Source: Candidatus Methanoperedens sp. BLZ2
GTDB taxonomy: Archaea; Halobacteriota; Methanosarcinia; Methanosarcinales; Methanoperedenaceae
Direction: 5' to 3'
Length of the DNA: 56,943 bases
Assembly (NCBI RefSeq): GCF_002487355.1
Contig: NZ_NTMG01000061.1
Coordinates: forward strand, 1 to 56,943
The position numbers were made by a program, and so were the translations under genes. Within the stretch, counting starts at the first letter, position 1, and each line of letters starts with the position of its first letter. The notes beneath the pieces are model-generated. The model made no database searches. It had not been told where the DNA came from and saw only the letters and a program-made list of their open reading frames with translations. Positions 2,465 through 49,333 of this stretch are shown one piece after another.

Positions 2465-2524
2465 GTTATCTCCTTTTGTTGATCTAACATTTTTCAATAC
2501 ATTGACTTCTATTAAGGAGCATGA

Positions 2525-11114: not shown

Positions 11115-11141
11115 ACAACCACATTAGATTATTTTGTGCAT

Positions 11142-12149: not shown

Positions 12150-12161
12150 TTTTTATCAACC

Positions 12162-13406: not shown

Positions 13407-13460
13407 CGGCTCATTCGAATTATGTTCAATTTTCTTTTCTTCATGTTTTAAACAGATTTT

Positions 13461-14645: not shown

Positions 14646-14722
14646 TGTAATTCCTTTATTAGTAAAATTTTTGCATTTATAATAAATTTAACGCATATTA
14701 AATGTTGTTAAAGTTAATATCA

Positions 14723-24209: not shown

Positions 24210-26318
24210 TTAAGGCCATACTGGTTGCCCGCCATTAGGTGGCACTATTATAGCAGTATACCGTACCTTCATCGGATAATATAGATTAAAGTTTTCGCCA
24301 TCAAATGGCCCAAAAGGAGGTCTATATCGATTATCTACCGGCATGCCATATTTATCCTTAACAACGAGCATCCGTTCAAGAAGCTGCCTGCTCCAGACGA
24401 TCTTGTTATACTGATACAATGATGTCATTGGCTGACTGGCATAATAGGTACCTGTGCTGTTGAACTTCTGGTAATTTGTACAGGCATGCTTTGCTGCTAC
24501 AAGTTGATCCTGGAATAAACACATCTGATAATTTACAATTTTCGTGCTTGGTTTAGTGATTACCTGAAGCCTCGAATAGATTGTTCCTCCTGCATAATTT
24601 ACAGGGGAAACAAGATTACTCGGGACATTGGAAACTCCGAAGAACGAGAATGCCCTCGTAATCGTATTGTGGGTATAGTATTCATCAATTATAACAAGCT
24701 GGTTGGTATTGGATGATGCTCTAACAGTCAGGATTGCCTGATTGCTGGTAACGCTTCCCTTTGCGTTTGTCACTATGACCCTGTATGCTGCCCCATTATA
24801 TGATAGAGTCGCGGAAGGGGTTGTGTACGATGCGCCTGTCGCACCAGGGATATTTGTTCCATTCTTCTGCCACTGATACGTCAACGGCGCTGTGCCCGTG
24901 GCTGCAACGCTGAATATAGCAGTCTGTCCCACTGTAATTGTCTTGCTGGCCGGTTGAGTAACAATTGTGGGTGGTACTTGAGTAGCCTGGGAAACTTTCG
25001 TGAGAACAACATCATCAAAGTAATACTGATCAGAAGCGGCATCGTACGGTGCCAGCATGAACATCAGGCGGCCATCCCTCACTGCTGTTGAAAAACCAGT
25101 TGTAGTAAACTGAACTGAGTATTCAGTCCATGAAGTTCCAAGGTTAACCACATAGTTCGATAATCCATAACTGGTATAGGGGGAGATGTGCTTCATAAGT
25201 GAAATTGAAAGATCATGGCCTGTGTTCGAATATGCCTTAAAGCTCAGGGTGTATTTAGTGTTGGGACTAAGCACCAGGCCTTTCTGATATAACTGGACAT
25301 TAGTTCCTTGCTGGGAAATTGTAATGTGACCTGCATGCGGGCTCCCAAAACCTGGCGCATTGTTCAACAGCGTGCCTGCACCATTAGTATAGAAGACCCA
25401 TGGAGAGGTACCCAACTCAAATCCCGGATTAGAAATAATCGAAAGCGCAGGTATATAACTGACAGTCAGTGTTGCCTCATTGCTGTTTACACTGCCCCAT
25501 GCATTAGATACCAGTACCCGAAATCGAGCTCCGTTATCAGAAAGCGTTATTGCAGGAGTTGTGTACGATGCGCCTGTCGCACCAGGGATATTTGTTCCAT
25601 TCTTCTGCCACTGATACGTCAACGGCGCTGTGCCCGTGGCTGCAACACTGAATATAGCAGTCTGTCCCACTGTAATTGTCTTGCTGGCTGGTTGAGTAAC
25701 AATTGTCGGTGATACTTGCGTATCCACGGAAACTTTCGTAAGAACAACATCATCAAGGTAATACTGATCAGATGCGGCATCGTATGGTGCCAGCCAGAAC
25801 ATCAGGCGGCCATCGCTCACTGTTGTGGAAAAACCAGTTGTAGTAAACTGAATTGAGTATTGGCTCCATGAAGTTCCAAGGTTAACTACATAATTTGACA
25901 AACCATATTTTGTATAGGGAGAGCCGTGCTTCAGAAGCGAAATAGAAAGATCATGGCCTGTGTTCGAATACGCCTTAAAGCTCAGGGTGTATTTAGTGTT
26001 GGGACTAAGCACCAGGCCTTTCTGATATAACTGGACATTTGTCCCTGGTGAGGATATCGTTACATGGCCTGCGTAAGTACCCACGATGCCAGGAGCGTTA
26101 TTCAAGAATTTTCCTGCTCCATTGGTATAGAAAATCCAGGGAGAGGTGCCTGACTCAAATCCCGGATTTACGAGAATGCTGGTCGACGCGGCAGAAGATA
26201 TACCCGGTATTGTCAGTATTAAAATACATAGAAATCCGAGATACTTTTTTATCCATTCCAGGTTTATTCGTAAAATTCCCGTTTCCAGTATATATGACCC
26301 TTCATTTTTCTTTAGCAT
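24210..26318 (-). CDS. Secreted CBM/Ig protein with an uncharacterised C-terminal module
   Basis: A 702-residue exported protein. A signal sequence (hydrophobic YLGFLCILILTIPGISSA, about 26-43) is followed by two near-identical pairs of a CBM_4_9-like module (NPGFESGTSPWIFYTNGAG...) and an Ig-like domain (ITVGQTAIFSVAATGTAP, YQWQKNGTNIPGATGAS). The C-terminal ~165 residues (from NTNQLVIIDEYYTHN to GGQPVWP) are a separate module I do not recognise. It is rich in Tyr, has three Cys-containing positions around YQMCLFQDQ and HACTNY, and recurs inside the 5572-residue protein. GAGGAT precedes the ATG. There is no C-terminal membrane anchor. Expected location is the extracellular matrix. Confidence 0.85.
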   Translation of the reverse strand: MLKKNEGSYILETGILRINLEWIKKYLGFLCILILTIPGISSAASTSILVNPGFESGTSPWIFYTNGAGKFLNNAPGIVGTYAGHVTISSPGTNVQLYQKGLVLSPNTKYTLSFKAYSNTGHDLSISLLKHGSPYTKYGLSNYVVNLGTSWSQYSIQFTTTGFSTTVSDGRLMFWLAPYDAASDQYYLDDVVLTKVSVDTQVSPTIVTQPASKTITVGQTAIFSVAATGTAPLTYQWQKNGTNIPGATGASYTTPAITLSDNGARFRVLVSNAWGSVNSNEATLTVSYIPALSIISNPGFELGTSPWVFYTNGAGTLLNNAPGFGSPHAGHITISQQGTNVQLYQKGLVLSPNTKYTLSFKAYSNTGHDLSISLMKHISPYTSYGLSNYVVNLGTSWTEYSVQFTTTGFSTAVRDGRLMFMLAPYDAASDQYYFDDVVLTKVSQATQVPPTIVTQPASKTITVGQTAIFSVAATGTAPLTYQWQKNGTNIPGATGASYTTPSATLSYNGAAYRVIVTNAKGSVTSNQAILTVRASSNTNQLVIIDEYYTHNTITRAFSFFGVSNVPSNLVSPVNYAGGTIYSRLQVITKPSTKIVNYQMCLFQDQLVAAKHACTNYQKFNSTGTYYASQPMTSLYQYNKIVWSRQLLERMLVVKDKYGMPVDNRYRPPFGPFDGENFNLYYPMKVRYTAIIVPPNGGQPVWP

Positions 26319-26752: not shown

Positions 26753-29700
26753 TCAGGTTACCTTTTCCAACCGGATGTCATCGAAGTAATAAGTCTCTCC
26801 TTTTGCTGCAAAGCTTACAAACCAGAACCGTATTCTTCCATCTTTCACCGTCCCGGAGAAACCGCTTGTGGTAAATTCAGTGGTGAAGGACTGCCAGCTG
26901 TTATTAAGATTAAACGTTTTGGATAAACCATAGTTGGTATATGGTGAAACGTCCTTAAGCAAATTAACAGTCACATCATGTCCCACAGTTGAATATCCTG
27001 CAAAACTCAGCCGATAGCGAGTATTCGGTTCCAGAGTTCTTCCGTTCTGGTATGTCTGCATATTCGTACCAATAGTGGTGAAAGCAATTTTTAATGCGTT
27101 GCCAGTTCCGTCATAACCTGGAGGTGCTGCACTGTAAGTCCATGCTCCGTTCGTGTAGAAACTCCATGATGTGGTTCCTGATTCAAATCCGCCATTGCTG
27201 ACCAGATTTGGCTGCAGGGATGCGGTTGTGAACTGCCAGGTAACCGATGCCGCCATATTATTACCAGCTATATCCTTTGCACCTGTCCCGACTGTTACAT
27301 TGTAGACCATATTGTAGGAAAGGCTCGTGGGTGGCGTATATTTCATAGTGTTGCCGCTCCAGTTGAAAGTCCCTCCTGAAGTATCAGGGAATGTGGAGAA
27401 CGCGGACTCAGCTGAGGATTTATTCATCTCTTCGCTAAAGGTTACATTTATCGAGGAAAGGACTGGAACATTTGTTCCACCGGGCGTTTTACTGATCACC
27501 CAGGGCTGGAATGTATCCGGAATCGTTGTGAACTGCCATGAATATACAGGTAGCATATTATTTGCCATGTCCTTTGCGCCGGTTCCAATTTCAACAGAAT
27601 AGGTTGTATTATATGAAAGGTTCAAAACCGGGGTATAGGTCATATTATTTCCTATCCAGCTGAAACTTCCATTTGTAGCCGGATTAGTTGAGAATGATGA
27701 TATTACCGATGACTGGTTCATCTCTTCACTGAAGTTCACTGTTATCCGCGCGGTCACAGGAACATCCGTTCCGATGGGCGAATTCCCGATGACCGCTGGG
27801 GATGTTAGATCCTCTTCTTTTGTAATGAACTGCCATTGATATTGAGATGACATATTATTGCCATACAGGTCCTTTGCACCAGTTCCGATCGTGACATTGT
27901 AAGTTGTGTTGAATCCAAGGCTCAAAGCCGGGGTATAGGTCATATTGTTCCCGCTCCAGCTGAAAGTCCCTCCTGAAATATCAGGAATAACGGAGAACGC
28001 TGACTCAGCTGAGGATTTATTCATCGCTTTGCTGAAGGTAACACTTATCTTCGTTGTATAAGGAACACCTGTTCCTGAGGGCGAATTCCCGATAACCGCC
28101 GGGGGTGTTAAATCCACTGGAATTGTAAGCACCGCTTCATTGCTTGGAACGCTGCCGAATTCATTGGTCACTATGACACGGTATCTGGAACCATTATCTG
28201 TCGATGTCGTCGGTGGAGTCGTATAGGTCTGGTTGTGCTCACCATTGATATTTACGCCATTTTTCTGCCACTGGTAGTATAACGGCGCTTGTCCTGATGC
28301 TACAACACTGAATGTGGCACTCGACCCTATAGTTACTGTCTGATTTACGGGTTGGGTCGTAATAACCGGAGGATTGTCCCACACCGGCTGTCCGCCGCCA
28401 GGCGGTACTATTATGGCAGTATATCGCACCTGCATCGGATAATAGAGATACAGGTTAGGCCAGCCGCTCCAATTTCCGTCAAATCCGTATCGGGTATCTA
28501 CCGGCCAGCCAGTTAAATCTTTAACAACAAGCATCTGGTCAAGAAGTTTCCTGTCCCATGAGATATTGTAATATTGATACAATGATGTCATTGACTGACT
28601 GGCATAATAGGTACCTGTGCGGTTGAACTTCACGAAATTTGTACAGGCATGCTTTTCTTCTACAATTTTATCCTGGAACATACACATCTGATAATTCACA
28701 ATTTTCGTGCTTGGTTTAGTGGTTACCTGAAGCCTTGAATAGATTGTTCCCCCCGCATAATTTATTGGCGAAACCAGGTTATCCGGTACATTGGGTTTAC
28801 CAAAGTATGAGAACGCCATCGTATAATTATTGTGGGTATAGTTTACATCCATTATAATCAGCTGGCTGTTATTGGACGATGCCCCGATCCTCAGGGTTGC
28901 CTGGTTGCTGGCAACGCTTCCTTTATCGTTTGTCACTATGACCGAATATAGCGCCCCATTGTCTGATTGGGCCGTGGGAGGCGTAGTATATGATGCGCCT
29001 ATCGCATCCGGGATGTCTGCTCCATTCTTCTTCCACTGGTAAGACAGAGGTAATTGACCTATGGCACCGACACTGAATGTTGCTGTTTTTCCCAGTGTAA
29101 CCAGACTATCTGCAGGCTGCGTTACAATGATTGGTGGGCTTACACTGTCAAATTGTTCTACCATGCCTGTCGTAATACTCAGATCCTTATATGCTGAGTA
29201 AACGGTCTTCGAGCCTGGTGTAAACTCTGTTCCGTCCATAAGACCCATTGTGAAATGCTGTGGACCGGATTGTGGCGAAATAGTTGCAGTCTGGGAATAA
29301 GTCCTGCCGAAACCAAAGACTACCATTGAACCTCCGGTATCCGTCATCGGATGGTATTCATCAATTAATGAATCATCCTCATGGTGCGAAACGAACAGGG
29401 AGCGATTCACATTCGGATCACTGAAATAAACCCATTCGTCTGTGGGAATATCATCATTTGTTCTCACAGAGAGCATGGTCTTCCTATTATCAGATCTGAC
29501 CATGAAATCTGTATTTTGATCTAACGACCCGCCGGGAGTACCTTCGTAGAGCCACCAGTAGGTGCCGCCTGCTTTTACTATGGTATTTGTAGCATATCCG
29601 GGATAGAAGTCCCAGAGACTTTCCCATAGTCCATTATTTGTGACTGACCTTACTCTGATCTTTAGCGGTCCCTGTGAGACTATACTGCTTGTACCGGTTG

Positions 29701-32700
29701 TCCAGCCCGGATGGAAAATCCCATTAGCATAAACATTGGGAATGCCGCGGTATCCCCCTCCTGCACTGGTCCAGGGAGTCGGATGGAAATTGATCCAGTC
29801 ATTATTTGATGCATCCACAAGACTCGATAAACCGCCTGCCTGTTTCTGGAAGTAGTAAGTGCTGCCGGCTGCTCCTATCCGATAGCTTAACTGCCCTTCA
29901 TCAGAGACATTATCGGTAAGTGTAACCTGTGGAGTCACAGACAGAGTGGAATAAGGTGTGCCTGTCAGACCAAAGTAAACCTGGTAATACCTGTTAGCGT
30001 TTGCCTGTGTCTTGCCAGTCATGATGAAGACGATAGTTCCGGTCGCTTTTGTAGCTGAATCGAAGTCAGGGTCTTTATCGAACTGGAATGGGACCGTAGA
30101 GCTCAACACCACGCCCAAGCTATCTGTTTCAACAACTCTTAACGAATTCTCATCAAAGGTGCCAGCCTGTCCAAGTATGTTAAGCATGTTGGTAAAGTCC
30201 ACGCTCACTTCAACTGGTTTTTCAGATCGTTCGTACTGTGTAGCATTAACTGTCACAGGTATGCGGAAATTGCGCTGTGCATCCCACCACTGTGAACCAG
30301 CTTCAATTACTGACAGTGTTACCTCATCGCTTGTCACGCTTCCATAACCGTTTGACACTACAACACTGAACTTTGTGCCGTTATCTGGCAGGTAGACAGC
30401 AGGAGTTGTGTACGAAGAACCGGTTGCATTTATTATGTCCACACCATTCTTCTTCCATTGATAACTCAATGGCGGGGTTCCACCTGCTGCGACACTGAAT
30501 GTCGCCGCCGATCCATTTAATACAGTACTATTTACAGGCTGCATTGTTATGATTGCTGGCAGCGGTGTATCTTCAGGAACAACAGGAGAAGAGGTATCAA
30601 AGAAATAATCGACAAGACCCGTAACGGCGTTCCCCGTATTCGCAAAATAAGGCCCTACTGAGGTCACAGTCAATGCCTGGCTGAAGCCGGGTGCAAAGAT
30701 CCAGTTCACACCATCATATGAATATGATTGCAGCCACTGGTCACCTGTCCTTTTTACCCGTAAGAATATCGGATTATTTGAATTAATCTGGATATCAGTT
30801 TTAATCTTTGCAGACCCGCCGATAATGCTTGCTGCAAATAGTCTCGTTCTTGTTGCTTCCCTGACAAAATCAAACCGCAGATAGTTGTTGCTATCCTGCT
30901 CTACAATCAATCCCTGGGTCTGTAAATCTGATGTCGGGGACTGGAACTTCACCTCTATCTCAAAATCCTTATTTGAGGTTGGTTGCATGATTCTCGGTGC
31001 CGTATTTTGTAACCATGCACTATGTGATAGGCCAGCCGGCAGGGTAATAGATAACAATGAATCAGAAGTCCCATTCCCTATGATGGCAAATGTCGCATCA
31101 CCCTGTGGATTAACTACGGTCCATAGCGATGTGTTCAGGGAGGGAGCATTGAAATCATCCGATTTAATGCCTGGCTGGGTCACCAGAGTCGTAAAACTCA
31201 GGTCTGCCGTATTGGCGGAATTACCTGCTGTATCTGTGGAATTGATCTGATAGTGATACTGCGTCCCAGCTGTCAGACCCGTCAGGGTAATCGCATGAGA
31301 CGTCGTTAATGTTCCATCAACAATACTGCCATTCTCATAAGCTATGCTTTGCCCATAGGAAACGTTGCTTGTTGCTGACTCATCCGTATTCCACCTGATA
31401 ATTGCCGAGGACACATCCGGCATAGAAACAACATTACTTATGGCTGGTGGTGTGGTATCAATATCAAACGGCCCGGGTTTGATACTAACATTTCCTATGC
31501 TTACGTCTGCATTATGAACCATAAGCACAACAGAACCATTTTTCAATTCACCCGGAATTCCGGAACCGCTGATAGTCCACTCAGAAGGCTCAAATGTGCC
31601 TTGTTCCCATACCTTAAGGGAATAAATTGAATTTAAACCAACTGTCTGCGCTCTCATCTTGAAGATATAGGGAACACCGACTGTAAGTTTCTTTCCACTT
31701 GTATCATCTGCAATTATACTACCACCATTCCCCTGGATTTGCAGCCTATAATTATTTGATCCGACATATGAATAGCCTGCTAAGGCTCCCAGTGGCCACC
31801 AGCCGTTTCTGGGCTGCTTACTGTTCCAATCATAATGACCCTTCCATCTCACAGTGAAACCGATAAAATTTCCCATAGGATTGGTAATCAAGGGAGAGTT
31901 AAGAGTGATCGGAGTTGTGATCTCATAGTCGTCCCATGTCATATTACCAATTGCGACCAAACGGTCATAGCCAATGGGGGAACGGATACTGTTAGTTTCT
32001 AGAGTCCATTTTCCATCAACAATCTGGGCTACATCCTGGATATTGGTAACATCACTCCAGTTGATTGAGTACGTTCTCGGCCAGGAGTTGTTACAGGAAT
32101 ACTGGACCGTCATCGATTCGTTCTTCACGTTTCCTGCGCCATCAGCCGCTTTGATTTCTATCTGATTGTTTCCACACAAGAGGTCTATGCTGTTGATCTC
32201 AATATTGAAATCACCCCTGGACTGGAGACGCATGCCATCAGGCCCTACTGTAAGAGGCCGGGCACTTCCCCCGTTCAGGGAATAATTCATTGAGACAACC
32301 CCGGATTCGTCATTAGCGTTGCCAAGAATGTTCACCCACTGCTGGGGGACGCCAATTTGTCCAAAGCTCTGCGGATTTCCATACCAGAGGGAAATGTTGG
32401 GAGGATTATGATCCGTATTGTCTTCAGGTACCACAGGAGATGATGAATTGAAGAAATAATCGATCTTAGCGTTAAATGCAGGCGCCGGATTTCCCGCATT
32501 ACCTGCGTATGGCCCTACAGTGTTCACCGTCAATACATGATTGAAATTCGCGGCAAGAGTCCAGTTGTTCCCATCGTATGAGTAATACTGTTTCCACTGG
32601 TTCGCTGTCCTGTTAATCCGGAGGTACAGGGTATTGCTTGAGGTTATCAGGTTGTTTATTCGCTGGGTAGCGGATCCGGATGCAAAACTTGCAGCATAGA

Positions 32701-35700
32701 TTTTTGTTGCAGTTGCAGAAGATCTAATGAAATCAAACCTGATATAGTTGCTGCTGTCTTGTTCTACGATTATTCCCTGTATCTGTGTCGCCGATGTCAT
32801 TACAGACTCGAATTTCGCCTCGATCTGGAAATCCGTGTTGTCTGCGGTCTGCATTACACGCGGGGCAGTGTTCGTTGTCCATGCATCATGTAAAGTACCG
32901 GCAGGTAAGTTGATGTTCAACGATGCATTTCCTGAACCCGCGCCTGTTATGGTAATTGTCGCATCACCCAGTGGATTGACGGAAGTCCAGTTCGAGGAAT
33001 CCAGGGGGAAGACATTGAAATCATCAGAAATGATGTTCCTGACAGTAAGCTTTGATGAATTACTGGTGGCCGTTCCCAGGGAATTTGTTACTGTAACGCT
33101 GTAAGTAGCTCCATTATCTGCCATTGTTGTTGGTGGGGTTGTGTAGGATGGACTGTTCGTACCAATGTTCACACCGTTCTTCTTCCACTGATATGAGAGG
33201 GGCTTTGTTCCGGTAGCTACTACATTGAAGGTTGCTGTTTTCTTCAATTTTACATTCATATCGACCGGTTGTGTAGTGATGCCGGGTGCATTTTGCGGCA
33301 GGAAATTTGTAAAGTTCAGGTTGTTTATGTCATTTCTGGATATGTTGATCACGATAGAAGTGCTGTTAGTTGCATTGTAATCAGGATTTGTTTCTCCTGT
33401 TATTATATATGTGCCTCTTAAAAGGTTATAGAATATATATCGGCCTGAAGAATCTGTCTTCGTGTTGTTTATCATTAAACCTGTAGTATTATTTAAAAGG
33501 TAGATATTCCAGTTTGATATGCCCGGTTCACCGGCATCCCATATACCATTTTCGTTCTTATCTTCTATCATGAACCCGGAAACATTATATTTTGGTGTTA
33601 AGTAATTTGTAAAGTTGAGGTTGTTTATGTCTTTATTTGAAACAGAAACAACAAGAGATGTGCTGTTACTGGCAATGTACCCGGGCTTTGTTTCTTCTGT
33701 CACTCTATATGTATCCCTTGAAAGGTTATAGAACACATATTGACCTGAGAAGTTTGTCGTTGTTTCAGCTATCTTTACACCTGTAGAGTTATTGAACAGG
33801 GAGATCTTCCAGTTCGGTAATCCGACTTCACCTGCATCCCAGATACCATTTTCGTTCTTATCTTCGATCTTGAATCCGGAAATATTTAATTGCTTCGGAG
33901 CAGAATTTGTGAAGTTGATATTGTCTATATCTTTGCCTGCTACGGTGAACACAAATGATGTGCTGTTCGTTGCAAAGTACCCGGCCTTCGTTTCTTCCTT
34001 CACTTTATATGTCCCATTTATGAGGTTATAGAATGCATATTTACCTGAAGGGTCGGTCTTCATACTGGCGATCTCTACACCGGTATTATTGTTGAATAGA
34101 GATATATTCCAGTCAGGTATCCCTACTTCACCTGCATCCCATATGCCATTGTCGTTATTATCCTCGATATTGAATCCTGATACATTGGATCTTAATGCAT
34201 CTTCAGGGATAACAGGTGAATCGGCATTGAAGAAATAATCAATTAGACCGGTGAAAGCTGGCGGAGTAGGTCCTGAATTCGCTATAAATGGACCTATGGA
34301 AGTCACTGTTAATGAAAGGTTAAAGCTTACGGATTTTGTCCAGTTTATACGATCGTAGGAATATTTCTGTGTCCATTCATTTCCTACTCGTTTTATATTC
34401 ATGTATAGAGGGATAGCGCTACTCTGAACCGCACCAATTGGGGTGTTCACTCTCATCGATGCTGATCCGTTAGTGAAATTAGCTGCAAATGCATTTATAG
34501 TTGTACCATCGCTAAAGAAATCAAATCGAATGTAGTTGTCTTTATCCTGCTCGATGATGATCCCCTGGGTCTGGTATTTCTTGTTTAGAACGGATTTGAA
34601 CATAACCTCGACTTCGAAATCATTGACATTGACATACTGCATAATCCTTGAAGCATTGTTCAAAATCCAAACATCATGCGCTTTACCCGCAGGTATGGTG
34701 ATGTTAAATAATACATCTGATGTACCAATGCCATCAATCCTGAATGATGAATCATTTTGCGGATCGATCTTTGTCCATAGCGAGGGATCCTGGCCTGGAT
34801 TACTGAAATCATCCGATACAATACCCAGTGGTTTATTTATGAAGTTCTGGTTTAAGATATCTCCGCCTGAAATCGTTATCTTCCGGGTTAAATCTGTGAG
34901 ATTCTTCCAGCCTTTACGATTTTCTTCAGTTACGTTATAAGTGCCATTTATAAGATCTGTAAACCTGTAGAAGCCCTCATTATTAGTTGACGTGTTTATT
35001 GTCATCGATCCATTGGATATTGAGATATTCCAGCCAGAAATTGCAGTTCCAGCGTCTCCATTGATCTTGTAACCTGAGACATTATATGTATAAATTATTG
35101 GCTGGTTCCTGAAGTTCACACTCAGATTATCCTTGCCATCGATAGTGATTTCCTGGATCAGGGAGGTGATATTCCTCCATCCGGGTCTCTCTTCTTCGGT
35201 TACATTGTATGTACCATTTACAAGGTCTTTGAATTCATAATAACCTGTACTATTAGTTGACGTTCTTATTGGTGTTGAGCCATTGGTTATCGTGATGTTC
35301 CAGCCAGCAATACCAGTATTGTCACTGGCATTGATCTTGTAACCTGAGAGGTTATAGGTATGAATTATTGGCCTGTTTGTGAAATTAACATTGTAAATGT
35401 CATCATAATTAACTATGATCTCCCGGGAGAGTGGAGTGACATTCATCCATTCGGGTTTTATTTCTTCACTAACCGTATATGTGCCTTTTGTGATGTTCGT
35501 GAACTTGTAGGAACCGTCAATATCAGTTAACGTGCTGCCAATCAGCATCGTGGAATTCGATATAGTGATATTCCAGCCAGACAGACCGGCGTTATCGCTG
35601 GCATTGATCTTGAAACCTGATACATTGAATTTTGTACCCGGCAATGGAGCGTCTTCAGGAATGAGGGGAGAGTTTGTATTAAAGAAATAATCTATAAGAC

Positions 35701-38700
35701 CTATATGGGCAGGTGCCGGGGTTCCAGCATTGCCTATAAAGGCTCCTACTGAAGTCACCTTCAATATATATGCGAAATTGTAGCCCGCTGTCCAGTTGGA
35801 TCCATCTTTTGAATAGTTCATCATCCACTGGTTGCCTATCCTTTTTACACGCATGGTCAGGTTAATCGGGTTTGGAGAAGTTTTGTTAATAGTAAACATT
35901 GTCTTTGGCGTACCTTTCCCATTAGCAAAAGTGGCTGCGAATATTTTTAAATTAGTCACATCACTTTCAAAATCAAACCTTATGAAATTTTTGCTGTCCT
36001 GCTGTATGATAACGCCCTCACTCTGGTAAGTCTTATTCAAGACTGACTGGAACTTGATTTCGATCTCAAAATCCTTGTCAGGAGCGTTCTGCATGATCCT
36101 TGGAGCATTATTTCCATACCAGATGTCATGATCTAAACCCGAAGGAATCGAGATTTTTAACAATGCATCTTTGGTACCTGGACCTACCTTAGCAAGGGTT
36201 GCATCATTTCTTGGATTGATAAATGTCCAGAGCGATGTGTTAAACGTTCCATCACTGAAATCATCTGAAATAATTTCGAGAGGTTTATTCATGAAGTTAA
36301 CGTTCTGTACATTGCTGCCCAGGATCATGCGATTCAGGGATAATGGAGTGACGTTGAGCCATTCCGGCTTAAGTTCTTCGGATATAGTGTATGTACCATT
36401 CAAAAGGTCTGTGAATTCATAATAACCAGTGGCGTCAGTTGTTGTTTTAATCGGCGTTGAGCCATTAGTTATTGTGATGTTCCAGCCCTGGAGTCCGGTA
36501 TTGTCATTGGCATTGGTGATGTAACCTGAGAGCCTGTAGGTATAAACTCTTGGCTGGTTCCTGAAGTTCACGCTCAGATTATCCCTGCCATCAATAGTGA
36601 TTTTCTGGGTCAGGGGCGTGACATTTATCCAATCCGGTAGTTCTTCTTCAGTTACATTGTATGTACCATTTACAAGGTCTGTGAATTCGAAATAACCAGT
36701 GGCGTCAGTTGATGTTTTTATTGGTGTTGAGCCATTAGTTACCGTGATATTCCAGCCCTGGATCCCAGTATTGTCACTGGCATTGATCTTGTAACCTGAG
36801 ATTTTGTAAGTATTAACGCTTGGCCTGTTCGTGAAATTCTGAAGTATGTCCTGGTCTATACCTTTGATTTCCCATAATCTGGGTGAAACATTGTTCCATC
36901 CTGATCGCTGTTCTTCAAATACTGTGTATGTACCTTCAACAAGGTCATTAAATTCATAGAAACCATTCGATCCGGTGGACTTATTTGTCTGGAGTGAGCC
37001 ATTAGTTATTGTGATGTTCCAGCCAGGTATCCCTGTGCCATCGCTGGCATTGATCTTATAACCTGTAAGGTTGAATTTCGTTGGATCTTCAGGGATTATA
37101 ATTGATTCCGTATTGAAGAAATAATCGATTTGACCGGTATATGCAGGCGGGAAGTATGGTAAGCCAGATTGTCCCACAAAAGGTCCAACCGATGTTACTT
37201 TTAATACATACGAGAACGTAGCGCCTGTAGTCCAGTTCATACCGTCTGTGGAATAGTTCATTGTCCACTGATCGCCTGCTCTTTTGATCCGCATATAAAG
37301 GGGAACAGGAGAGCCACTGATTGAAGTCGTCGACTTCACTTCAAATGATTCGTTGTCATTAGTGAGCGCTATTATATTTGTATTCAATAAATCCTGTTCA
37401 AAATTAAACCTGATTGATTTATTATTATCCTGCTGGATAATTACCCCTTCCATCTGGTTCATTGTTGTCATTTGAGACTGGAATTTGACCTCAATCTCAA
37501 AATCCTCGTTACTTGCATTCTGCATAACCCTTGGTGCATTGAGGTTGCCATCCTTAAATTCATGCTGTGACGTATCGGGAACCGAAATAGATAATGACGC
37601 ATTTTTAGTACCGGTACCTATAATGGAAATTGTTGAATCATTTAGCGGATTGATAACTGTCCATAGCGGAGATTTAAGAGATGGAGAACTAAAATCATCA
37701 GAAACAATAACCAGAGGTTTATTTATGAAGTTAAAGTTCGTTACACCCTGGCCATCAATTGTGACTTCCCGGGATAATGGAGTAAGATTAACCCATTCTG
37801 GTTGCAGTTCTTCAAATATAGTGTATGTGCCATTTAAAAGGTACGGGAAATTATAGAATCCTGTATCGTTAGTTGAGACTGTTGTTTGTATCGCGTCACT
37901 CTTCGCTGTAACATTCCATCCAGGGATTCCCCTGCCATCGCTTGCATTAATAATATAACCTGAAATGCTGAATTTCGATGGATCTTCAGGTGCTTTCGGA
38001 GAGTTCGTATTGAAGAAATAATCTATAAGACCGGTATGTGCAGGTGCCGGGAGTCCGGCATTACCTACAAAGAGTCCTACTGATGTCACTTTCAATGTAT
38101 AAACAAAATTAATACCTGGGTTCCAGTTTATCCCATCTCTTGAATAGTTCATTGACCATTGATTGCCTACCCTTTTCACACGCATAGCCAGATTAACCGG
38201 ACTTGATGAACTACTGTTAATAATAATCATTGACCTGGGTGTCCCTGCACCATTAGCAAAAGTGGCTGCGAATATTTTTGTATAAGTCCCATCACTTTCA
38301 AAATCAAACCTGATATAATTAAGGCTGTCCTGCTCTACTATAATGCCCTCACTCTGGTATTTCTTGTTCAAGATTGACTGGAACTTGATTTCGATCTCAA
38401 AATCCTTGTTAGGAGCGTTCTGCATGATCCTTGGAGCCCTGTTTCCGGACCAGACATCATGGTCTAAACCCGAAGGAATCGAGATGTTCAACAATGCATC
38501 TTTGGTACCTGAACCCGCCATATTAAGGGTTGCATCATTTCTTGGATTGATAAATGTCCAGAGCGATGTGTTAAGCGTTTCATCACTGAAATCATCTGAG
38601 ATAATTTCGAGAGGTTTATTCATGAAGTTAACGTTCTGTACATTGCTGCCCAGGATCGTGCGATCCAGGGATAATGGAGTGACATTTAACCATTCCGGCT

Positions 38701-41700
38701 TAAGTTCTTCGGATATAGTGTATGTACCATTCAAAAGATCGGTGAATTCATAATAACCTGTATTATTAGTTGTTGTTTTTATTGTTGCTGAGCCGTTAGT
38801 TATCGTGATGTTCCAGCCCTGGAGTCCAGTATTGTCATTGGCATTGATCTTGTAACCTGAGAGATTGTAGGTATAAACTCTTGGCTGGTTCCTGAAGTTC
38901 ACGCTCTGATTATCCTTGCCATCGATAGTGATTTCCTGGGTCAGGGGCGTGACATTTATCCATCCTGGTCTTTCTTCTTCAGTTACATTGTATGTACCAT
39001 TTACAAGGTCGGTGAATTCATAATAACCTGTATTATCAGTTGATGTTTTTATTGTTGCTGAGCCATTAGTTACCGTGATGTTCCAGCCCTGGAGTCCAGT
39101 ATTGTCACTGGCATTGATCTTGTAACCTGAGAGATTGTAGGTATAAACTCTTGGCCTGTTCGTGAAATTCGAAAGTATGTCCTGGTCTATACCTTTGATC
39201 TCCAGAGATACAGGTGAAACATTCGTCCATCCTGATCGCTGTTCTTCAAATACTGTGTATGTACCTTCAACAAGTTCCTTGAATTCATAGAAACCATCCG
39301 ATCCCGTGGACTTATTTGTCTGGATTGAGCCATTAGTTATTGTGATGTTCCAGCCAGGGATCCCGCTGCCATCGCTGGCATTGATCTTATAGCCTGTCAG
39401 GTTGAATTTCGTTGGATCTTCAGGGACTATTATTGATTCCGTATTGAAGAAATAATCGATTTTACCTGTATATTCAGGTGGGAAGTAGCCTGAACCGCTT
39501 TGCCCAACAAAGGGTCCAATAGATGTCACTTTTAATACATACGAGAATATAGCGCCTGTAGTCCAGTTCATACCGTCTGTGGAATAGTTCATTGTCCACT
39601 GGTCGCCTGCCCTCTTAATACGCATATAAAGGGGTGCTGGAGAGCCACTGATTGAATTCATCGACATTACATTATACGATTCATTGTCAAAAGTGATCGC
39701 CATTATATTTGTACTGAAATAATCCCGTTCAAAATTAAACCTGATTGATTTATTGTTATCCTGCTGGATAATTACTCCTTCCATCTGGTTCACTGATGTC
39801 ATTTCGGACTGGAATTTGACCTCTATTTCAAAATCCTTGTTACTTGCTTTCTGCATAATCCGTGGAGCATCATAGTTTCCGATCTTAAATTCATGCTGTG
39901 ATGTATCGGGAACCGAAATGGATAATGATGCATTTTTGGTACCGGTACCTATTATGGAAATATCTGAATCATTTCGTGGATCAACAATGGTCCAGAGCCC
40001 GGTATTCAGTTCTTGAGCACTGAAATCATCCGAGACAATAACCAGTGGTTTATTCGTAAAGTTCTCGCTTATGTCCCTGTCTAACGTTATTTCCTTTGAT
40101 GCCGGGGTAACATTGGTCCATTCAGATTCCAGTTCTTCAAATATTGTGTAGGTACCCCTTGCAACATTCGCGAATTCGTAATAGCCATTCTCATCAGTGA
40201 AATTGCTTATTTGACCATGATCATTCTTTATCGTGATATTCCAGCCTAAGATTCCTCTTCCGTCGCTGGCATTGAGCTTGTAACCTGAGACCTTGAATGT
40301 TGATATTGGCTTGTTCGTGAAGTTCACGCCTGTATAGTCCTGGCCAAAAACCGTGATATTCCGGGATAACTGAGAAACATTAGTCCATCCTATCTTCAAT
40401 TCTTCAGAAATTGTGTATGTACCGTCAATAATATCAGTGAATTCATAATAACCGTTCGCGTTTGTGGACCTGGTTGTCAGGTTTGACCCCTTTGTCAGTG
40501 TTATATTCCAGCCAGAGATTCCAGTGCCATCACTTTGATTGATCTTGTAACCTGAAATTATATATGTTTTAACTATCGGTCTGTTCGTGAAGTTGACATT
40601 CGTTATATCCTGGTCTGTAACATTGATCTCCTGGGATCTAACCGAAATATTCTTCCATCCTGATCGCTCTTCTTCAAAGACGGTGTATGTCCCGTTTACA
40701 AGGTTCGTAAACTGATAGAAGCCCTCGTTATTAGTTGATGTGATTATTGTCGTTGAATCGTTGGTTAATGTAATATTCCAGCCAGAAATACCTCTGTCAT
40801 CGCTGGCATTGAGCTTATAACCTGAAATATTTAATTTCGTTTCATCTTCAGGTATTATAGGGTTGTTCGTATTAAAGAAATAATCAATTAAACCGTTATG
40901 GGCAGGCGGTATTACATACCTGCTGCCAGCATTCCCCACAAATGGCCCTATTGATGTTACATTCAATGAATACGAGAATGCAGTGCCTGTAGTCCAGTTC
41001 TTTCCATCTGAAGAATAGTTCATCGTCCATTGGTCCCCTTCCCTTTTAACACGCATATAAAGGAATACGGGAGGATCATTAATTATGTTGTTTGTTATGA
41101 CTATTGGATTTCCATTAGAAAAAGTTGCAGCGAACTTCCTTGTATCATATCCATCATAGAAAATATCAAGTCTTATGTATTTATTGATATTCTCCTGGAT
41201 AATCACTCCCTGGCTTTGATACATTTTGTTCACCTGGGATTGGAACTTAACCTCGACCTCAAAATCTATATTACTAACATTTTGCATGATTCTGGGTGCA
41301 TTGTTGGTACTCCAAACATCATGTTCTAAACCTGAAGGAATCGAGATGTTTAACAATGCATTCTTGGTTCCAGTACCTACCATTGTAAAGTTTGCATCAT
41401 ATCGTGGATTAATAAATGTCCAGAGTGATGTGTTAAGTGAAGGAGCACTGAAATCATCCGAGATAATAAGCTGCGTATAGATCACGATGGCCTTATTCGC
41501 ACCCAGTGATCCTGCTGTGCCGGGGGGGGCAAGAGTCAGGACGGCAGCGTTGTTAGCACTGTCATTGATCGTTCCTCCGTTCAGGGTGAATGCAGTGGTT
41601 GAAACATAATCCAGATCGCTTGAAATATCTTCTGACTGGACAACATAATTGAAGGTTAGAGTGTTGGTTCCTGAACCGCTGGAATAGGTGGCCTGTCTAT

Positions 41701-43471
41701 CTGTTGAGCCTGTTTCAAGCTGGATCTGTGGTGTACCGGTTACTGTTACCGATTTTGTGAATTTTACTGTGACAGCGATCGTCTTGCCTGAGCTGTATGT
41801 TCCATTGGCTGTGGTTGACGAGACTTCCGTTACTGAGGGTGCAACAGTATCTGAAGTATATGTCAGGGTATTGGATGCGGTATTGCTGTTCCCTGCTGTA
41901 TCCTGGGCTGAGCCGGCTGGAACGTTGATCATTACTGTGATACCTGCACCGTCAGTTGGATTTACATCAAAGGTGTAACTCGTTCCTGATCCACCAAAGT
42001 TCTCTACAGTACCGTTTGTAACTGTGACGTTTCCTGATGTGAATCCTGTAACTGATTCACTGAACGTTGCGGTTACTGAGATAAGGCCATTGGTTGGATT
42101 TGGGGTTGAGGAAGAGAGAACTGCTGTTGGAGATACTGTATCTGAGTTATATGATAGCGCATTGGATACGGTATTGCTGTTCCCTGCTGTATCCTGGGCT
42201 GCACCGGCTGGAACATCGATCGTTACTGCAATGTTTGCTCCATTTGTTGGAGTCACGTTAAAAGTATAAATTGCTCCTGATCCTGCAAAGTTATTTACTG
42301 TACCGTTGGTTACCAAAATTTCAGATGAATCAAAGCCTGTAACTGATTCACTGAACGTTGCGGTTACTGAGACCAGGCTGTTGGTTGGATTCGGGGTTGA
42401 GGAGGAGAGAATTACTGACGGTGTAACTGTATTCGATGTATATGATAGCGTATTTGATGCTGTATTGCTGTTGGTTGCTGCATCCTGGGCAACACCGGCT
42501 GGAACATCGATCGTTACTGCGATGTTTGCTCCACCTGTTGGAGTCACGTTAAAAGTGTAAACTGTTCCTGAGCCTGCAAAATTATTTACAGTACCGTTTG
42601 TAACTGTGACGTCTGTTGCTATGAATCCTGTAACCGATTCATTGAAAGTTGCAGTTACTGAGATCAGGCCGTTGGTCGGATTCGAGGTTGAGGAGGAGAG
42701 AATTACTGTCGGAGAAACTGTATCTGAAGTATATGATAGCGTATTTGAGGCTGTATTGTTGTTGGTTGCTGCATCCTGGGCTGAGCCGGCTGGAACACCG
42801 ATCGTTACTGTGATACCTGTACCGTCGGTTGGATTTACATCAAAAGTATAAGTTGTTCCTGATCCACCAAAGTTCTCTACACTACCGTTTGTTACTAAAA
42901 TATCTGCTGAATCAAAGCCTGTAACTGACTCATTGAAAGTTGCAGTTACTGAGATCAGGCCGTTGGTTGGGTTGGTGGTTCCAGATATAAGTTCAACTGT
43001 TGGTGCTACTGCATCTATCACAAAATCAGTGTTTGCACCCAGCGAACCTGATGTACCTGGAGCGGGCAAAATGAGAATCGCATCGATGCCCGAACTATTT
43101 TTGATCGTTCCGCCATTCGTTGTGAGTGAGCCTGTTGCGACATAATCAAGTTCGTTTGAGGCATCTCCTGCCTGGACGGTATAGTTGAAGATAAGTGTAT
43201 CAGTGCCATTACCGCTGGAATATATGGCCTGTTGATCGGTTGTGCCTGTCTCAAGCTGGATTTCTGGATAACCGGTTAAGTTTACTGGTTCACTGAAGGT
43301 TATGGTTATCGCTATTGTCTGGCCTGTTGTATAGGTTCCATTGGCTGTGGCCGATGATACTCCGGTCACTGTGGCCGAATCTCCGCTTGCTGATACAGAG
43401 ATAAATATAACGGCAGCTATAATTAAAAATCCTAACAATAATATTGATTTCCTTCCTAACTTTTTGAACAT
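26753..43471 (-). CDS. Giant secreted modular protein, 5572 residues
   Basis: One uninterrupted 16.7-kb frame. A signal peptide (MFKKLGRKSILLLGFLIIAA, to ~29) is followed, by approximate residue, by: an Ig-like/cadherin-type domain (35-155), four bacterial Ig-like repeats starting APTV/SPTV (157-545), and a second copy of the first domain (545-665). Then come eight concanavalin-like DUF1349-type domains, each starting SDDF (about 667, 1147, 1624, 1924, 2400, 2885, 3480, 4102). Between them lie sixteen SdrD B-like repeats (SGYKINASD, GWNIT, GTYTVFEE). The rest holds Ig domains (3393, 4304, 4776, 5031), a second lectin-like region (3794-4000), Fn3 (4001), a ~380-residue unknown region (4391), the module shared with the 702-residue protein (4865-5030), three Big_5 domains (5121-5420) and a C-terminal CBM. 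GGTGA precedes the ATG. No C-terminal anchor or PEF-CTERM signal. Likely a matrix adhesin. Confidence 0.93.
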   Translation of the reverse strand: MFKKLGRKSILLLGFLIIAAVIFISVSASGDSATVTGVSSATANGTYTTGQTIAITITFSEPVNLTGYPEIQLETGTTDQQAIYSSGNGTDTLIFNYTVQAGDASNELDYVATGSLTTNGGTIKNSSGIDAILILPAPGTSGSLGANTDFVIDAVAPTVELISGTTNPTNGLISVTATFNESVTGFDSADILVTNGSVENFGGSGTTYTFDVNPTDGTGITVTIGVPAGSAQDAATNNNTASNTLSYTSDTVSPTVILSSSTSNPTNGLISVTATFNESVTGFIATDVTVTNGTVNNFAGSGTVYTFNVTPTGGANIAVTIDVPAGVAQDAATNSNTASNTLSYTSNTVTPSVILSSSTPNPTNSLVSVTATFSESVTGFDSSEILVTNGTVNNFAGSGAIYTFNVTPTNGANIAVTIDVPAGAAQDTAGNSNTVSNALSYNSDTVSPTAVLSSSTPNPTNGLISVTATFSESVTGFTSGNVTVTNGTVENFGGSGTSYTFDVNPTDGAGITVMINVPAGSAQDTAGNSNTASNTLTYTSDTVAPSVTEVSSTTANGTYSSGKTIAVTVKFTKSVTVTGTPQIQLETGSTDRQATYSSGSGTNTLTFNYVVQSEDISSDLDYVSTTAFTLNGGTINDSANNAAVLTLAPPGTAGSLGANKAIVIYTQLIISDDFSAPSLNTSLWTFINPRYDANFTMVGTGTKNALLNISIPSGLEHDVWSTNNAPRIMQNVSNIDFEVEVKFQSQVNKMYQSQGVIIQENINKYIRLDIFYDGYDTRKFAATFSNGNPIVITNNIINDPPVFLYMRVKREGDQWTMNYSSDGKNWTTGTAFSYSLNVTSIGPFVGNAGSRYVIPPAHNGLIDYFFNTNNPIIPEDETKLNISGYKLNASDDRGISGWNITLTNDSTTIITSTNNEGFYQFTNLVNGTYTVFEEERSGWKNISVRSQEINVTDQDITNVNFTNRPIVKTYIISGYKINQSDGTGISGWNITLTKGSNLTTRSTNANGYYEFTDIIDGTYTISEELKIGWTNVSQLSRNITVFGQDYTGVNFTNKPISTFKVSGYKLNASDGRGILGWNITIKNDHGQISNFTDENGYYEFANVARGTYTIFEELESEWTNVTPASKEITLDRDISENFTNKPLVIVSDDFSAQELNTGLWTIVDPRNDSDISIIGTGTKNASLSISVPDTSQHEFKIGNYDAPRIMQKASNKDFEIEVKFQSEMTSVNQMEGVIIQQDNNKSIRFNFERDYFSTNIMAITFDNESYNVMSMNSISGSPAPLYMRIKRAGDQWTMNYSTDGMNWTTGAIFSYVLKVTSIGPFVGQSGSGYFPPEYTGKIDYFFNTESIIVPEDPTKFNLTGYKINASDGSGIPGWNITITNGSIQTNKSTGSDGFYEFKELVEGTYTVFEEQRSGWTNVSPVSLEIKGIDQDILSNFTNRPRVYTYNLSGYKINASDNTGLQGWNITVTNGSATIKTSTDNTGYYEFTDLVNGTYNVTEEERPGWINVTPLTQEITIDGKDNQSVNFRNQPRVYTYNLSGYKINANDNTGLQGWNITITNGSATIKTTTNNTGYYEFTDLLNGTYTISEELKPEWLNVTPLSLDRTILGSNVQNVNFMNKPLEIISDDFSDETLNTSLWTFINPRNDATLNMAGSGTKDALLNISIPSGLDHDVWSGNRAPRIMQNAPNKDFEIEIKFQSILNKKYQSEGIIVEQDSLNYIRFDFESDGTYTKIFAATFANGAGTPRSMIIINSSSSSPVNLAMRVKRVGNQWSMNYSRDGINWNPGINFVYTLKVTSVGLFVGNAGLPAPAHTGLIDYFFNTNSPKAPEDPSKFSISGYIINASDGRGIPGWNVTAKSDAIQTTVSTNDTGFYNFPYLLNGTYTIFEELQPEWVNLTPLSREVTIDGQGVTNFNFINKPLVIVSDDFSSPSLKSPLWTVINPLNDSTISIIGTGTKNASLSISVPDTSQHEFKDGNLNAPRVMQNASNEDFEIEVKFQSQMTTMNQMEGVIIQQDNNKSIRFNFEQDLLNTNIIALTNDNESFEVKSTTSISGSPVPLYMRIKRAGDQWTMNYSTDGMNWTTGATFSYVLKVTSVGPFVGQSGLPYFPPAYTGQIDYFFNTESIIIPEDPTKFNLTGYKINASDGTGIPGWNITITNGSLQTNKSTGSNGFYEFNDLVEGTYTVFEEQRSGWNNVSPRLWEIKGIDQDILQNFTNRPSVNTYKISGYKINASDNTGIQGWNITVTNGSTPIKTSTDATGYFEFTDLVNGTYNVTEEELPDWINVTPLTQKITIDGRDNLSVNFRNQPRVYTYRLSGYITNANDNTGLQGWNITITNGSTPIKTTTDATGYYEFTDLLNGTYTISEELKPEWLNVTPLSLNRMILGSNVQNVNFMNKPLEIISDDFSDGTFNTSLWTFINPRNDATLAKVGPGTKDALLKISIPSGLDHDIWYGNNAPRIMQNAPDKDFEIEIKFQSVLNKTYQSEGVIIQQDSKNFIRFDFESDVTNLKIFAATFANGKGTPKTMFTINKTSPNPINLTMRVKRIGNQWMMNYSKDGSNWTAGYNFAYILKVTSVGAFIGNAGTPAPAHIGLIDYFFNTNSPLIPEDAPLPGTKFNVSGFKINASDNAGLSGWNITISNSTMLIGSTLTDIDGSYKFTNITKGTYTVSEEIKPEWMNVTPLSREIIVNYDDIYNVNFTNRPIIHTYNLSGYKINASDNTGIAGWNITITNGSTPIRTSTNSTGYYEFKDLVNGTYNVTEEERPGWRNITSLIQEITIDGKDNLSVNFRNQPIIYTYNVSGYKINGDAGTAISGWNISISNGSMTINTSTNNEGFYRFTDLINGTYNVTEENRKGWKNLTDLTRKITISGGDILNQNFINKPLGIVSDDFSNPGQDPSLWTKIDPQNDSSFRIDGIGTSDVLFNITIPAGKAHDVWILNNASRIMQYVNVNDFEVEVMFKSVLNKKYQTQGIIIEQDKDNYIRFDFFSDGTTINAFAANFTNGSASMRVNTPIGAVQSSAIPLYMNIKRVGNEWTQKYSYDRINWTKSVSFNLSLTVTSIGPFIANSGPTPPAFTGLIDYFFNADSPVIPEDALRSNVSGFNIEDNNDNGIWDAGEVGIPDWNISLFNNNTGVEIASMKTDPSGKYAFYNLINGTYKVKEETKAGYFATNSTSFVFTVAGKDIDNINFTNSAPKQLNISGFKIEDKNENGIWDAGEVGLPNWKISLFNNSTGVKIAETTTNFSGQYVFYNLSRDTYRVTEETKPGYIASNSTSLVVSVSNKDINNLNFTNYLTPKYNVSGFMIEDKNENGIWDAGEPGISNWNIYLLNNTTGLMINNTKTDSSGRYIFYNLLRGTYIITGETNPDYNATNSTSIVINISRNDINNLNFTNFLPQNAPGITTQPVDMNVKLKKTATFNVVATGTKPLSYQWKKNGVNIGTNSPSYTTPPTTMADNGATYSVTVTNSLGTATSNSSKLTVRNIISDDFNVFPLDSSNWTSVNPLGDATITITGAGSGNASLNINLPAGTLHDAWTTNTAPRVMQTADNTDFQIEAKFESVMTSATQIQGIIVEQDSSNYIRFDFIRSSATATKIYAASFASGSATQRINNLITSSNTLYLRINRTANQWKQYYSYDGNNWTLAANFNHVLTVNTVGPYAGNAGNPAPAFNAKIDYFFNSSSPVVPEDNTDHNPPNISLWYGNPQSFGQIGVPQQWVNILGNANDESGVVSMNYSLNGGSARPLTVGPDGMRLQSRGDFNIEINSIDLLCGNNQIEIKAADGAGNVKNESMTVQYSCNNSWPRTYSINWSDVTNIQDVAQIVDGKWTLETNSIRSPIGYDRLVAIGNMTWDDYEITTPITLNSPLITNPMGNFIGFTVRWKGHYDWNSKQPRNGWWPLGALAGYSYVGSNNYRLQIQGNGGSIIADDTSGKKLTVGVPYIFKMRAQTVGLNSIYSLKVWEQGTFEPSEWTISGSGIPGELKNGSVVLMVHNADVSIGNVSIKPGPFDIDTTPPAISNVVSMPDVSSAIIRWNTDESATSNVSYGQSIAYENGSIVDGTLTTSHAITLTGLTAGTQYHYQINSTDTAGNSANTADLSFTTLVTQPGIKSDDFNAPSLNTSLWTVVNPQGDATFAIIGNGTSDSLLSITLPAGLSHSAWLQNTAPRIMQPTSNKDFEIEVKFQSPTSDLQTQGLIVEQDSNNYLRFDFVREATRTRLFAASIIGGSAKIKTDIQINSNNPIFLRVKRTGDQWLQSYSYDGVNWIFAPGFSQALTVTSVGPYFANTGNAVTGLVDYFFDTSSPVVPEDTPLPAIITMQPVNSTVLNGSAATFSVAAGGTPPLSYQWKKNGVDIINATGSSYTTPAVYLPDNGTKFSVVVSNGYGSVTSDEVTLSVIEAGSQWWDAQRNFRIPVTVNATQYERSEKPVEVSVDFTNMLNILGQAGTFDENSLRVVETDSLGVVLSSTVPFQFDKDPDFDSATKATGTIVFIMTGKTQANANRYYQVYFGLTGTPYSTLSVTPQVTLTDNVSDEGQLSYRIGAAGSTYYFQKQAGGLSSLVDASNNDWINFHPTPWTSAGGGYRGIPNVYANGIFHPGWTTGTSSIVSQGPLKIRVRSVTNNGLWESLWDFYPGYATNTIVKAGGTYWWLYEGTPGGSLDQNTDFMVRSDNRKTMLSVRTNDDIPTDEWVYFSDPNVNRSLFVSHHEDDSLIDEYHPMTDTGGSMVVFGFGRTYSQTATISPQSGPQHFTMGLMDGTEFTPGSKTVYSAYKDLSITTGMVEQFDSVSPPIIVTQPADSLVTLGKTATFSVGAIGQLPLSYQWKKNGADIPDAIGASYTTPPTAQSDNGALYSVIVTNDKGSVASNQATLRIGASSNNSQLIIMDVNYTHNNYTMAFSYFGKPNVPDNLVSPINYAGGTIYSRLQVTTKPSTKIVNYQMCMFQDKIVEEKHACTNFVKFNRTGTYYASQSMTSLYQYYNISWDRKLLDQMLVVKDLTGWPVDTRYGFDGNWSGWPNLYLYYPMQVRYTAIIVPPGGGQPVWDNPPVITTQPVNQTVTIGSSATFSVVASGQAPLYYQWQKNGVNINGEHNQTYTTPPTTSTDNGSRYRVIVTNEFGSVPSNEAVLTIPVDLTPPAVIGNSPSGTGVPYTTKISVTFSKAMNKSSAESAFSVIPDISGGTFSWSGNNMTYTPALSLGFNTTYNVTIGTGAKDLYGNNMSSQYQWQFITKEEDLTSPAVIGNSPIGTDVPVTARITVNFSEEMNQSSVISSFSTNPATNGSFSWIGNNMTYTPVLNLSYNTTYSVEIGTGAKDMANNMLPVYSWQFTTIPDTFQPWVISKTPGGTNVPVLSSINVTFSEEMNKSSAESAFSTFPDTSGGTFNWSGNTMKYTPPTSLSYNMVYNVTVGTGAKDIAGNNMAASVTWQFTTASLQPNLVSNGGFESGTTSWSFYTNGAWTYSAAPPGYDGTGNALKIAFTTIGTNMQTYQNGRTLEPNTRYRLSFAGYSTVGHDVTVNLLKDVSPYTNYGLSKTFNLNNSWQSFTTEFTTSGFSGTVKDGRIRFWFVSFAAKGETYYFDDIRLEKVT
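31000..41470. repeat. Long repeat region of DUF1349-like and SdrD B-like modules
   Basis: About 10 kb of alternating repeats inside the giant gene: eight ~220-residue lectin-like domains and sixteen ~88-100-residue prealbumin-like repeats in groups of 3, 3, 1, 3, 3 and 3. Several copies match closely in DNA, for example the 38.3-38.7 and 36.0-36.4 kb segments. The last three prealbumin-like repeats carry an extra insertion of the NGIWDAGE type, an added calcium-loop-like segment typical of SdrD B domains. Confidence 0.85.
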
Positions 43472-48556: not shown

Positions 48557-48567
48557 TTAAATGTACC

Positions 48568-49095: not shown

Positions 49096-49333
49096 TCCAT
49101 TTAATTTTATTATTAATTAATCTTGGTATTGGATAGAAGCATGATATGTTATTGAACGAGTAAAATATTCAGAGTAAATGATTATTATTAGCATAACGAT
49201 GATTTATTTAATCTATTAAAAGAGATACATATATATTGAATAGAATAGTATTAATAACTAATTTACTCAACGGCTATGGTGGCTTATGAGTTGGAATGTA
49301 GATAAATGTGTATATAAGAGTGATTAAAATAAC

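Follow-up and report, generated by a model that had tools for sequence, protein, structure and literature searches.

The window, i.e., the whole stretch of 56,943 nt that was analyzed, contains on its minus strand a reading frame that starts with ATG, runs for 5572 codons without an internal stop and encodes a giant protein with a secretion signal at its N-terminus (Table 1). The plus-strand reading of the same interval is ruled out, as it contains stops throughout. The 5572-residue, 16.7 kb open frame described in the initial annotation is confirmed, as are the modules listed there and their order; the strand had not been given, and six Big_12, four Ig and three Big_5 modules, together with three domains without a Pfam match, had been missed. 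The source genome (3.7 Mb) encodes McrA, and DUF1349 occurs in it in the giant gene only. Neither Rfam nor tRNA scanning found anything in the window. The combination of modules in the giant protein is new, the families themselves being already known, and literature searches found no description of the protein. A previous count for one ANME-2d genome lists 17 CenC-like CBMs and 8 Cna-B domains (PMC5244752).

Counting with profiles that were built from the giant protein itself and iterated yields eight DUF1349-type heads and sixteen SdrD_B/SpaA-type stalk modules in the order 3-3-1-3-3-3, the same result as that first reported. A Pfam search of the translation agrees, with matches to DUF1349 (PF07081), SdrD_B (PF17210), SpaA, Big_12, Ig_3, Big_5 and a C-terminal CBM_4_9 (PF02018; 36 and 55 bits, gathering cut-off 25.9); GH43_C2 and Glucodextran_B matches are also obtained. 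The PF07081 gathering cut-off is passed by seven of the eight heads, scored singly or with their neighbours, and the profile built here recognizes all eight. The repeated stalk-family domains comprise 16 SdrD_B/SpaA, 6 Big_12, 4 Ig and 3 Big_5 modules.

Table 1. Positions of the giant gene, its modules and neighbouring genes in the window (residue numbers in brackets).
Feature	Position	Strand	Basis
Giant secreted protein gene, 5572 aa	26753..43471	-	frame, orthologue
Signal sequence (1-31), sole long hydrophobic segment	43379..43471	-	sequence, hydropathy
Big_12 array: outer variants (35-152 and 547-664), four inner modules between	41480..43369	-	Pfam, profiles
DUF1349 head 1 (669-876)	40844..41467	-	profiles
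SdrD_B stalk modules 1-3 (881-1142)	40046..40831	-	Pfam, profiles
DUF1349 head 2 (1145-1352)	39416..40039	-	profiles
SdrD_B stalk modules 4-6 (1357-1620)	38612..39403	-	Pfam, profiles
DUF1349 head 3 (1623-1830)	37982..38605	-	profiles
SdrD_B stalk module 7 (1836-1919), without triad lysine	37715..37966	-	profiles
DUF1349 head 4 (1922-2129)	37085..37708	-	profiles
SdrD_B stalk modules 8-10 (2134-2397)	36281..37072	-	Pfam, profiles
DUF1349 head 5 (2400-2607)	35651..36274	-	profiles
SdrD_B stalk modules 11-13 (2616-2881)	34829..35626	-	Pfam, profiles
DUF1349 head 6 (2884-3091)	34199..34822	-	profiles
SdrD_B stalk modules 14-16 (3096-3389), calcium-type loop D-x-[ND]-x-NG-x-W-D in these three only	33305..34186	-	
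Ig module 1 (3396-3477)	33041..33286	-	Pfam, profiles
DUF1349 head 7 (3480-3684)	32420..33034	-	profiles
Orphan domain C (3691-3999), 312 profile positions	31475..32401	-	no whole-domain Pfam or PDB match
fn3 / purple-acid-phosphatase-N-like module (about 4019-4095)	31187..31417	-	
DUF1349 head 8 (4102-4301)	30569..31168	-	profiles
Orphan domain A (4394-4772)	29156..30292	-	model, conservation
Orphan domain B (4866-5031)	28379..28876	-	model
Other three Ig modules	30308-30553, 28886-29134, 28121-28369	-	Pfam, profiles
Three Big_5 modules (5093-5399)	27275..28195	-	Pfam, profiles
C-terminal CBM_4_9 (5428-5571), clade-specific subfamily, proposed retention tag	26759..27190	-	Pfam
Internal segmental duplication, copy A, about 2.55-2.58 kb	37754..40304	-	82% DNA identity to copy B
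Internal segmental duplication, copy B	35408..37979	-	partner of copy A
Secreted protein: Ig, same CBM, C-terminal dockerin	242..2536	-	
Glycan assembly genes: two glycosyltransferases, two methyltransferases, Wzx-type flippase	9939..16183	-	
CBM-Ig-CBM-Ig and FG-GAP propeller protein	16501..20238	-	
CBM-Ig-CBM-Ig-orphan domain B secreted protein	24210..26318	-	
Archaeosortase C (TIGR03762)	44803..45639	+	
Small PEF-CTERM protein, likely ArtC substrate	49334..49852	+	

Among the neighbouring genes, the FG-GAP propeller protein, which starts with CBM-Ig-CBM-Ig, is 82% identical over 718 aa to a second propeller protein (20475-22757) that starts with a lipobox (SGC). The dockerin-bearing protein has no catalytic domain in Pfam. 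Archaeosortase C lies in a cluster (44803-49852) with a DUF1616 protein, VanZ and the small PEF-CTERM protein, and the same archaeosortase neighbourhood exists without the giant gene in LFW-24, a Ca. Methanoperedens genome (PMC8561730) of the same genus as the source genome, which is accordingly very probably Ca. Methanoperedens (ANME-2d) as well. The gene adjoining archaeosortase C encodes an HtpX-like membrane protein (43862-44671) in which LAHNIVQ replaces the HExxH zinc motif, and this loss is also kept in two related genomes.

Another genome (G005) of the genus, the genus being probably Ca. Methanoperedens, encodes a syntenic orthologue of 4996 aa that is 90% identical, has a complete frame and is accompanied by archaeosortase C, a DUF1616 protein, a PEF-CTERM protein and ribonucleotide reductase. 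The search for orthologues with the same module order, as initially proposed, returns a co-linear protein that lacks exactly residues 671-1146 (one head plus three stalk modules) and 3198-3297 (one stalk module). With a dN of 0.051, a dS of 0.257 and a dN/dS of 0.20 between the two, the giant gene is under purifying selection in both genomes, and gain and loss proceed by whole modules. The best head pair inside the giant protein shows 81% amino acid identity, and the dS of the internal duplication (0.53, from a 106-codon sample) exceeds the orthologue dS, which indicates that the duplication is older than the split of the two genomes. A relative in LFW-24 is 54% identical to the giant protein, with its frame broken in that assembly into two overlapping frames near L105:1757-1796, by sequencing error, pseudogene formation or a frameshift.

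Frameshifts and collapsed or expanded repeats had been named at the outset as the observations that would overturn the gene. The contig is metagenome-derived and the LFW-24 copy is split, as expected of an assembly artefact or a decaying gene, but this explanation is extremely improbable: the repeat copies are well diverged and hence are not collapsed or expanded reads, and the co-linear orthologue, with its whole frame and low dN/dS in an independently assembled genome, excludes chance and artefact. The giant gene is a genuine, functional gene for an exceptionally long archaeal surface protein, the surface location being predicted. Two other giant frames of relatives, of 5323 and 5442 aa and with weak CBM_4_9 matches (G005:C24:43451-43855 and G006:C86:55284-55694), are possible further giant surface proteins of the genus.

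Head-module matches are strong in three and weak in one of the 34 genomes of the family; class-wide, 5 of 238 genomes contain strong matches, all of them from either this genus or a different family of the same order. One of the latter, ANME-2 cluster archaeon B4-08, possesses both head and CBM modules. The head module also occurs in many bacterial phyla together with orphan domain C, and the SdrD_B stalk between heads was not found in any bacterial locus read. In a quick tree, the 29 archaeal heads have a single origin beside those of the anammox bacteria Ca. Jettenia and Ca. Loosdrechtia, with moderate support (SH-aLRT 93); this tree was set aside as proof of a horizontal-transfer origin. 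The genome of the orthologue carries, directly downstream of its giant gene, an extra paralogue of 1222 residues (L103:15258-18923; CBM-Ig-head-Ig-A-Ig-B) that has no counterpart in the window.

The stalk profile matches the solved sequences of SdrD, RrgA and GBS52, and the full Lys-Glu-Asn triad is present in 12 of the 16 stalk modules of the giant protein. Across 42 archaeal stalk modules, Asn is retained in all 42, Glu in 41 and Lys in 30, and the triad Lys column is by far the most lysine-rich column of the alignment. SdrD_B was listed as a predicted isopeptide family in a 2025 survey (Lys159/Glu218/Asn248; PMC12617251), in which the triad spacings are 59 and 89, compared with 58 and 88 in the long modules of the giant protein. 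The SdrD-type calcium loop D-x-[ND]-x-[ND]-G-x-x-D is found in only 3 of the 16 modules (14-16), which indicates that calcium is not the general principle of the stalk; calcium was rejected as a general stalk lock, and the earlier suggestion of calcium-dependent contacts has little in its favour where the stalk as a whole is concerned. Most stalk modules are predicted, from their triads, to be locked covalently by isopeptide bonds and not by calcium.

The N-terminus consists of a basic n-region followed by a hydrophobic core of about 18 residues, SILLLGFLIIAAVIFISV, with a mean Kyte-Doolittle hydropathy over 19 residues of 2.9, and the maximum after residue 40 is 1.24. Residues 1-31 are thus the only membrane-length hydrophobic stretch, in line with the clear signal peptide noted initially. 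At the other end, no PEF/PGF-CTERM signal, LPXTG motif or transmembrane helix is present, and the protein ends in the CBM (...YYFDDIRLEKVT), which bears out the statement that PEF-CTERM and transmembrane anchors are absent. The signal might alternatively remain uncleaved and tether the adhesin to the membrane, with the C-terminal CBM facing outward to bind polysaccharide from a partner or from the environment. The core is long for a signal peptide and strongly hydrophobic, and paralogues sharing the head and orphan-C core have a C-terminal transmembrane helix; however, VSA|SG after the core is a plausible signal peptidase site, and a CBM at the C-terminus of many unrelated proteins fits general retention better than a specific partner ligand, which makes a membrane tether unlikely.

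The CBM that ends the giant protein is also carried by about twelve further secreted proteins of this organism. Its subfamily has 24 matches in the source genome, 16 in that of the orthologue and 14 in LFW-24 (some partial), and none in the 31 other genomes of the family. It is only this subfamily that is specific to the clade: PF02018 is found in 19 of the 34 family genomes, and the idea that CBM_4_9 as such is unique to the clade was rejected. The CBM lies within three residues of the stop codon in 21 of 37 complete 3' ends, a count that includes one bacterial locus and one 85-aa fragment, and is non-terminal in the other 16. The tagged cargo includes multicopper oxidase-like, GDSL lipase-like, NosD-like, subtilase and cytochrome-like proteins. 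As the subfamily occurs in three genomes that are most closely related to one another, its co-occurrence with the giant protein largely reflects shared ancestry, and the joint presence of head and CBM was downgraded as independent evidence. One tagged protein contains both the CBM and a PGF-CTERM, which, together with the non-terminal copies, indicates that the CBM is not a strict sorting signal.

In a homologue from another genome (G044), the heads and three Big_5 modules are followed by a PGF-CTERM, at the position where the giant protein has the CBM after its three Big_5 modules, and in bacterial relatives the end is a dockerin-like or a Bacteroidota-type sorting tail. These endings, together with the C-terminal transmembrane helix of the paralogues and the lipobox and CBM-Ig-CBM-Ig variants of the two propeller proteins in the window, suggest that the ends are interchangeable. 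The proposal in the initial annotation that the protein is held by its CBM is strengthened by this pattern, in which the CBM recurs, often right at the C-terminus, in places that other anchors occupy in homologues, and the binding to glycan is putative. The best-supported explanation for how the giant protein may stay at the cell is a retention tag that binds glycan. More tentatively, the CBM_4_9 subfamily may be a general, non-covalent, glycan-directed retention tag in one Methanoperedens clade, with the giant protein as an isopeptide-locked, multi-lectin cross-linker of the coat whose modules were exchanged with bacteria, nearest among them the anammox planctomycetes. If so, the CBM tag would be a route to the surface besides archaeosortase, lipobox and transmembrane anchors, and it makes a specific proposal for the retention of multicopper oxidases and the adhesin in the matrix.

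The giant protein contains 212 N-x-S/T sequons, compared with 112 +/- 9 in shuffled sequences and 125 occurrences of the reversed motif, the z-scores being inflated by the repeated modules. No comparable excess is found in bacterial homologues or in most window neighbours. Sequon Asn residues are conserved at 94%, compared with 86% for other Asn residues, and the genome contains two STT3 oligosaccharyltransferase genes; the protein is probably N-glycosylated. The sequon excess, the STT3 genes and the many lectin-type modules in one chain would also suit a structural sheath or S-layer-associated component of the organism's own aggregates, in which the heads bind its own N-glycans and cross-link copies of the protein without adhesion to a partner. 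No S-layer domain is detected in the giant protein with Pfam or NCBIfam, and its sparse, uneven distribution (4 of 34 family genomes, one weak) argues against a core envelope component; this role is considered rather unlikely.

For orphan domain A, which contains many invariant polar and aromatic residues, the model (pLDDT 71) shows similarity to the beta-supersandwich found in GH38 mannosidases and in galactose mutarotases, and weak similarity to a PL26 lyase. Orphan domain B, which is also the C-terminal domain of the secreted protein at 24210-26318, is modelled as a beta-sandwich (pLDDT 80) with weak resemblance to CBM30/22/16, and its fold search returned nothing below an E-value of 1e-3, only generic beta-sandwiches. 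The models of A and B point to carbohydrate binding. Domains A and C have no PDB sequence match. Orphan domain C lies beside DUF1349 in more than 50 loci of many bacterial phyla and in the majority of the bacterial relatives; profile-profile comparison gave no homology between the two.

An extracellular, cellulosome-like scaffold that processes or captures polysaccharide, with domain A or B catalytic and the heads and CBM docking the substrate, would account for the resemblances and invariant residues of domain A, for the GH43_C2, Glucodextran_B and CBM matches, and for the dockerin protein within the window. No catalytic family is recognized in Pfam or NCBIfam, however, the GH38 match concerns a non-catalytic beta region with a TM-score of at most 0.5 in a model of modest pLDDT, and the genus is methanotrophic, with McrA in the genome, so such a scaffold is quite improbable.

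The description of the protein as a very long adhesin with many binding heads agrees with its anatomy, i.e., adhesive-type heads, stalk repeats and a signal peptide, and with its relatives, with the binding itself a prediction from fold: DUF1349 (a GH43_C2-like ConA fold) and CBM_4_9 are binding-type folds and constitute putative binding modules. An adhesin is the likely role of the giant protein. The full reading, a fibrillar adhesin or matrix scaffold of a Ca. Methanoperedens lineage that is held by its CBM and has an isopeptide-locked stalk, is somewhat favoured. The protein would be exported by the general secretory route through its signal sequence and would form a long string that begins with an N-terminal Ig-like spacer, continues with six ConA-like heads between which prealbumin-type stalk modules are placed, and closes with a C-terminal half containing many carbohydrate-type domains. 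In most stalk modules, an intramolecular Lys-Asn isopeptide bond, catalyzed by the Glu of the triad, would act as the lock, the chain would be N-glycosylated by virtue of its sequons and the STT3 enzymes, and the heads may recognize glycans or glycoproteins, either on neighbouring cells or in the shared matrix. The terminal CBM_4_9 may hold the protein non-covalently in a coat of polysaccharide that the adjacent glycosyltransferase and flippase genes plausibly assemble.

The cohesion of granules and bacterial partners in nitrate- and metal-reducing anaerobic methanotrophs is poorly known, and the giant protein is a concrete candidate for it. It also seems to be an archaeal example of an SdrD_B isopeptide stalk, and its length takes it beyond what structure databases cover. 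Studies of archaeal adhesins are described as scarce in a recent review (PMC11224092).

A comparison with known systems reveals that the giant protein resembles SdrC/SdrD of Staphylococcus, RrgA and GBS52 in modules that score as SdrD_B/SpaA and in a triad with the SdrD_B spacing. The SdrD model for MSCRAMMs (NF012181) matches the two halves of the giant protein with 72 and 98 bits, over the B-repeat region only and below its cut-off of 2500. Unlike the SdrC/SdrD-type adhesins, the giant protein is archaeal, contains DUF1349 ConA-like heads in place of an SdrD A region, lacks LPXTG and a serine-aspartate region, and has a CBM_4_9 at its end; it is also more than four times longer than the 1280 aa AFDB limit applied in the isopeptide survey (PMC12617251). 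Bacterial proteins with DUF1349 and orphan domain C (many phyla, e.g., Ca. Jettenia ecosi, Ignavibacteriae and Gammaproteobacteria; loci L017, L012 and L025) share repeated heads that are 46-51% identical and the same orphan domains, but they contain Ig or other spacers instead of an SdrD_B stalk between heads and have other C-terminal ends, and none reaches 5,000 aa among the loci read. The likeness to archaeosortase substrates (PEF-CTERM/PGF-CTERM) lies in the shared organism, the ArtC gene 1.3 kb away and the Big_5 homologue with a PGF-CTERM, whereas the giant protein lacks the tripartite C-terminal signal of PEF motif, transmembrane helix and basic tail. Finally, the CBM profile matches the CBM4 of laminarinase 16A (1gui, E 2.5e-8), a profile match that agrees with the Pfam assignment to CBM_4_9, but the subfamily found in the giant protein recurs terminally on unrelated secreted proteins rather than on one glycanase.
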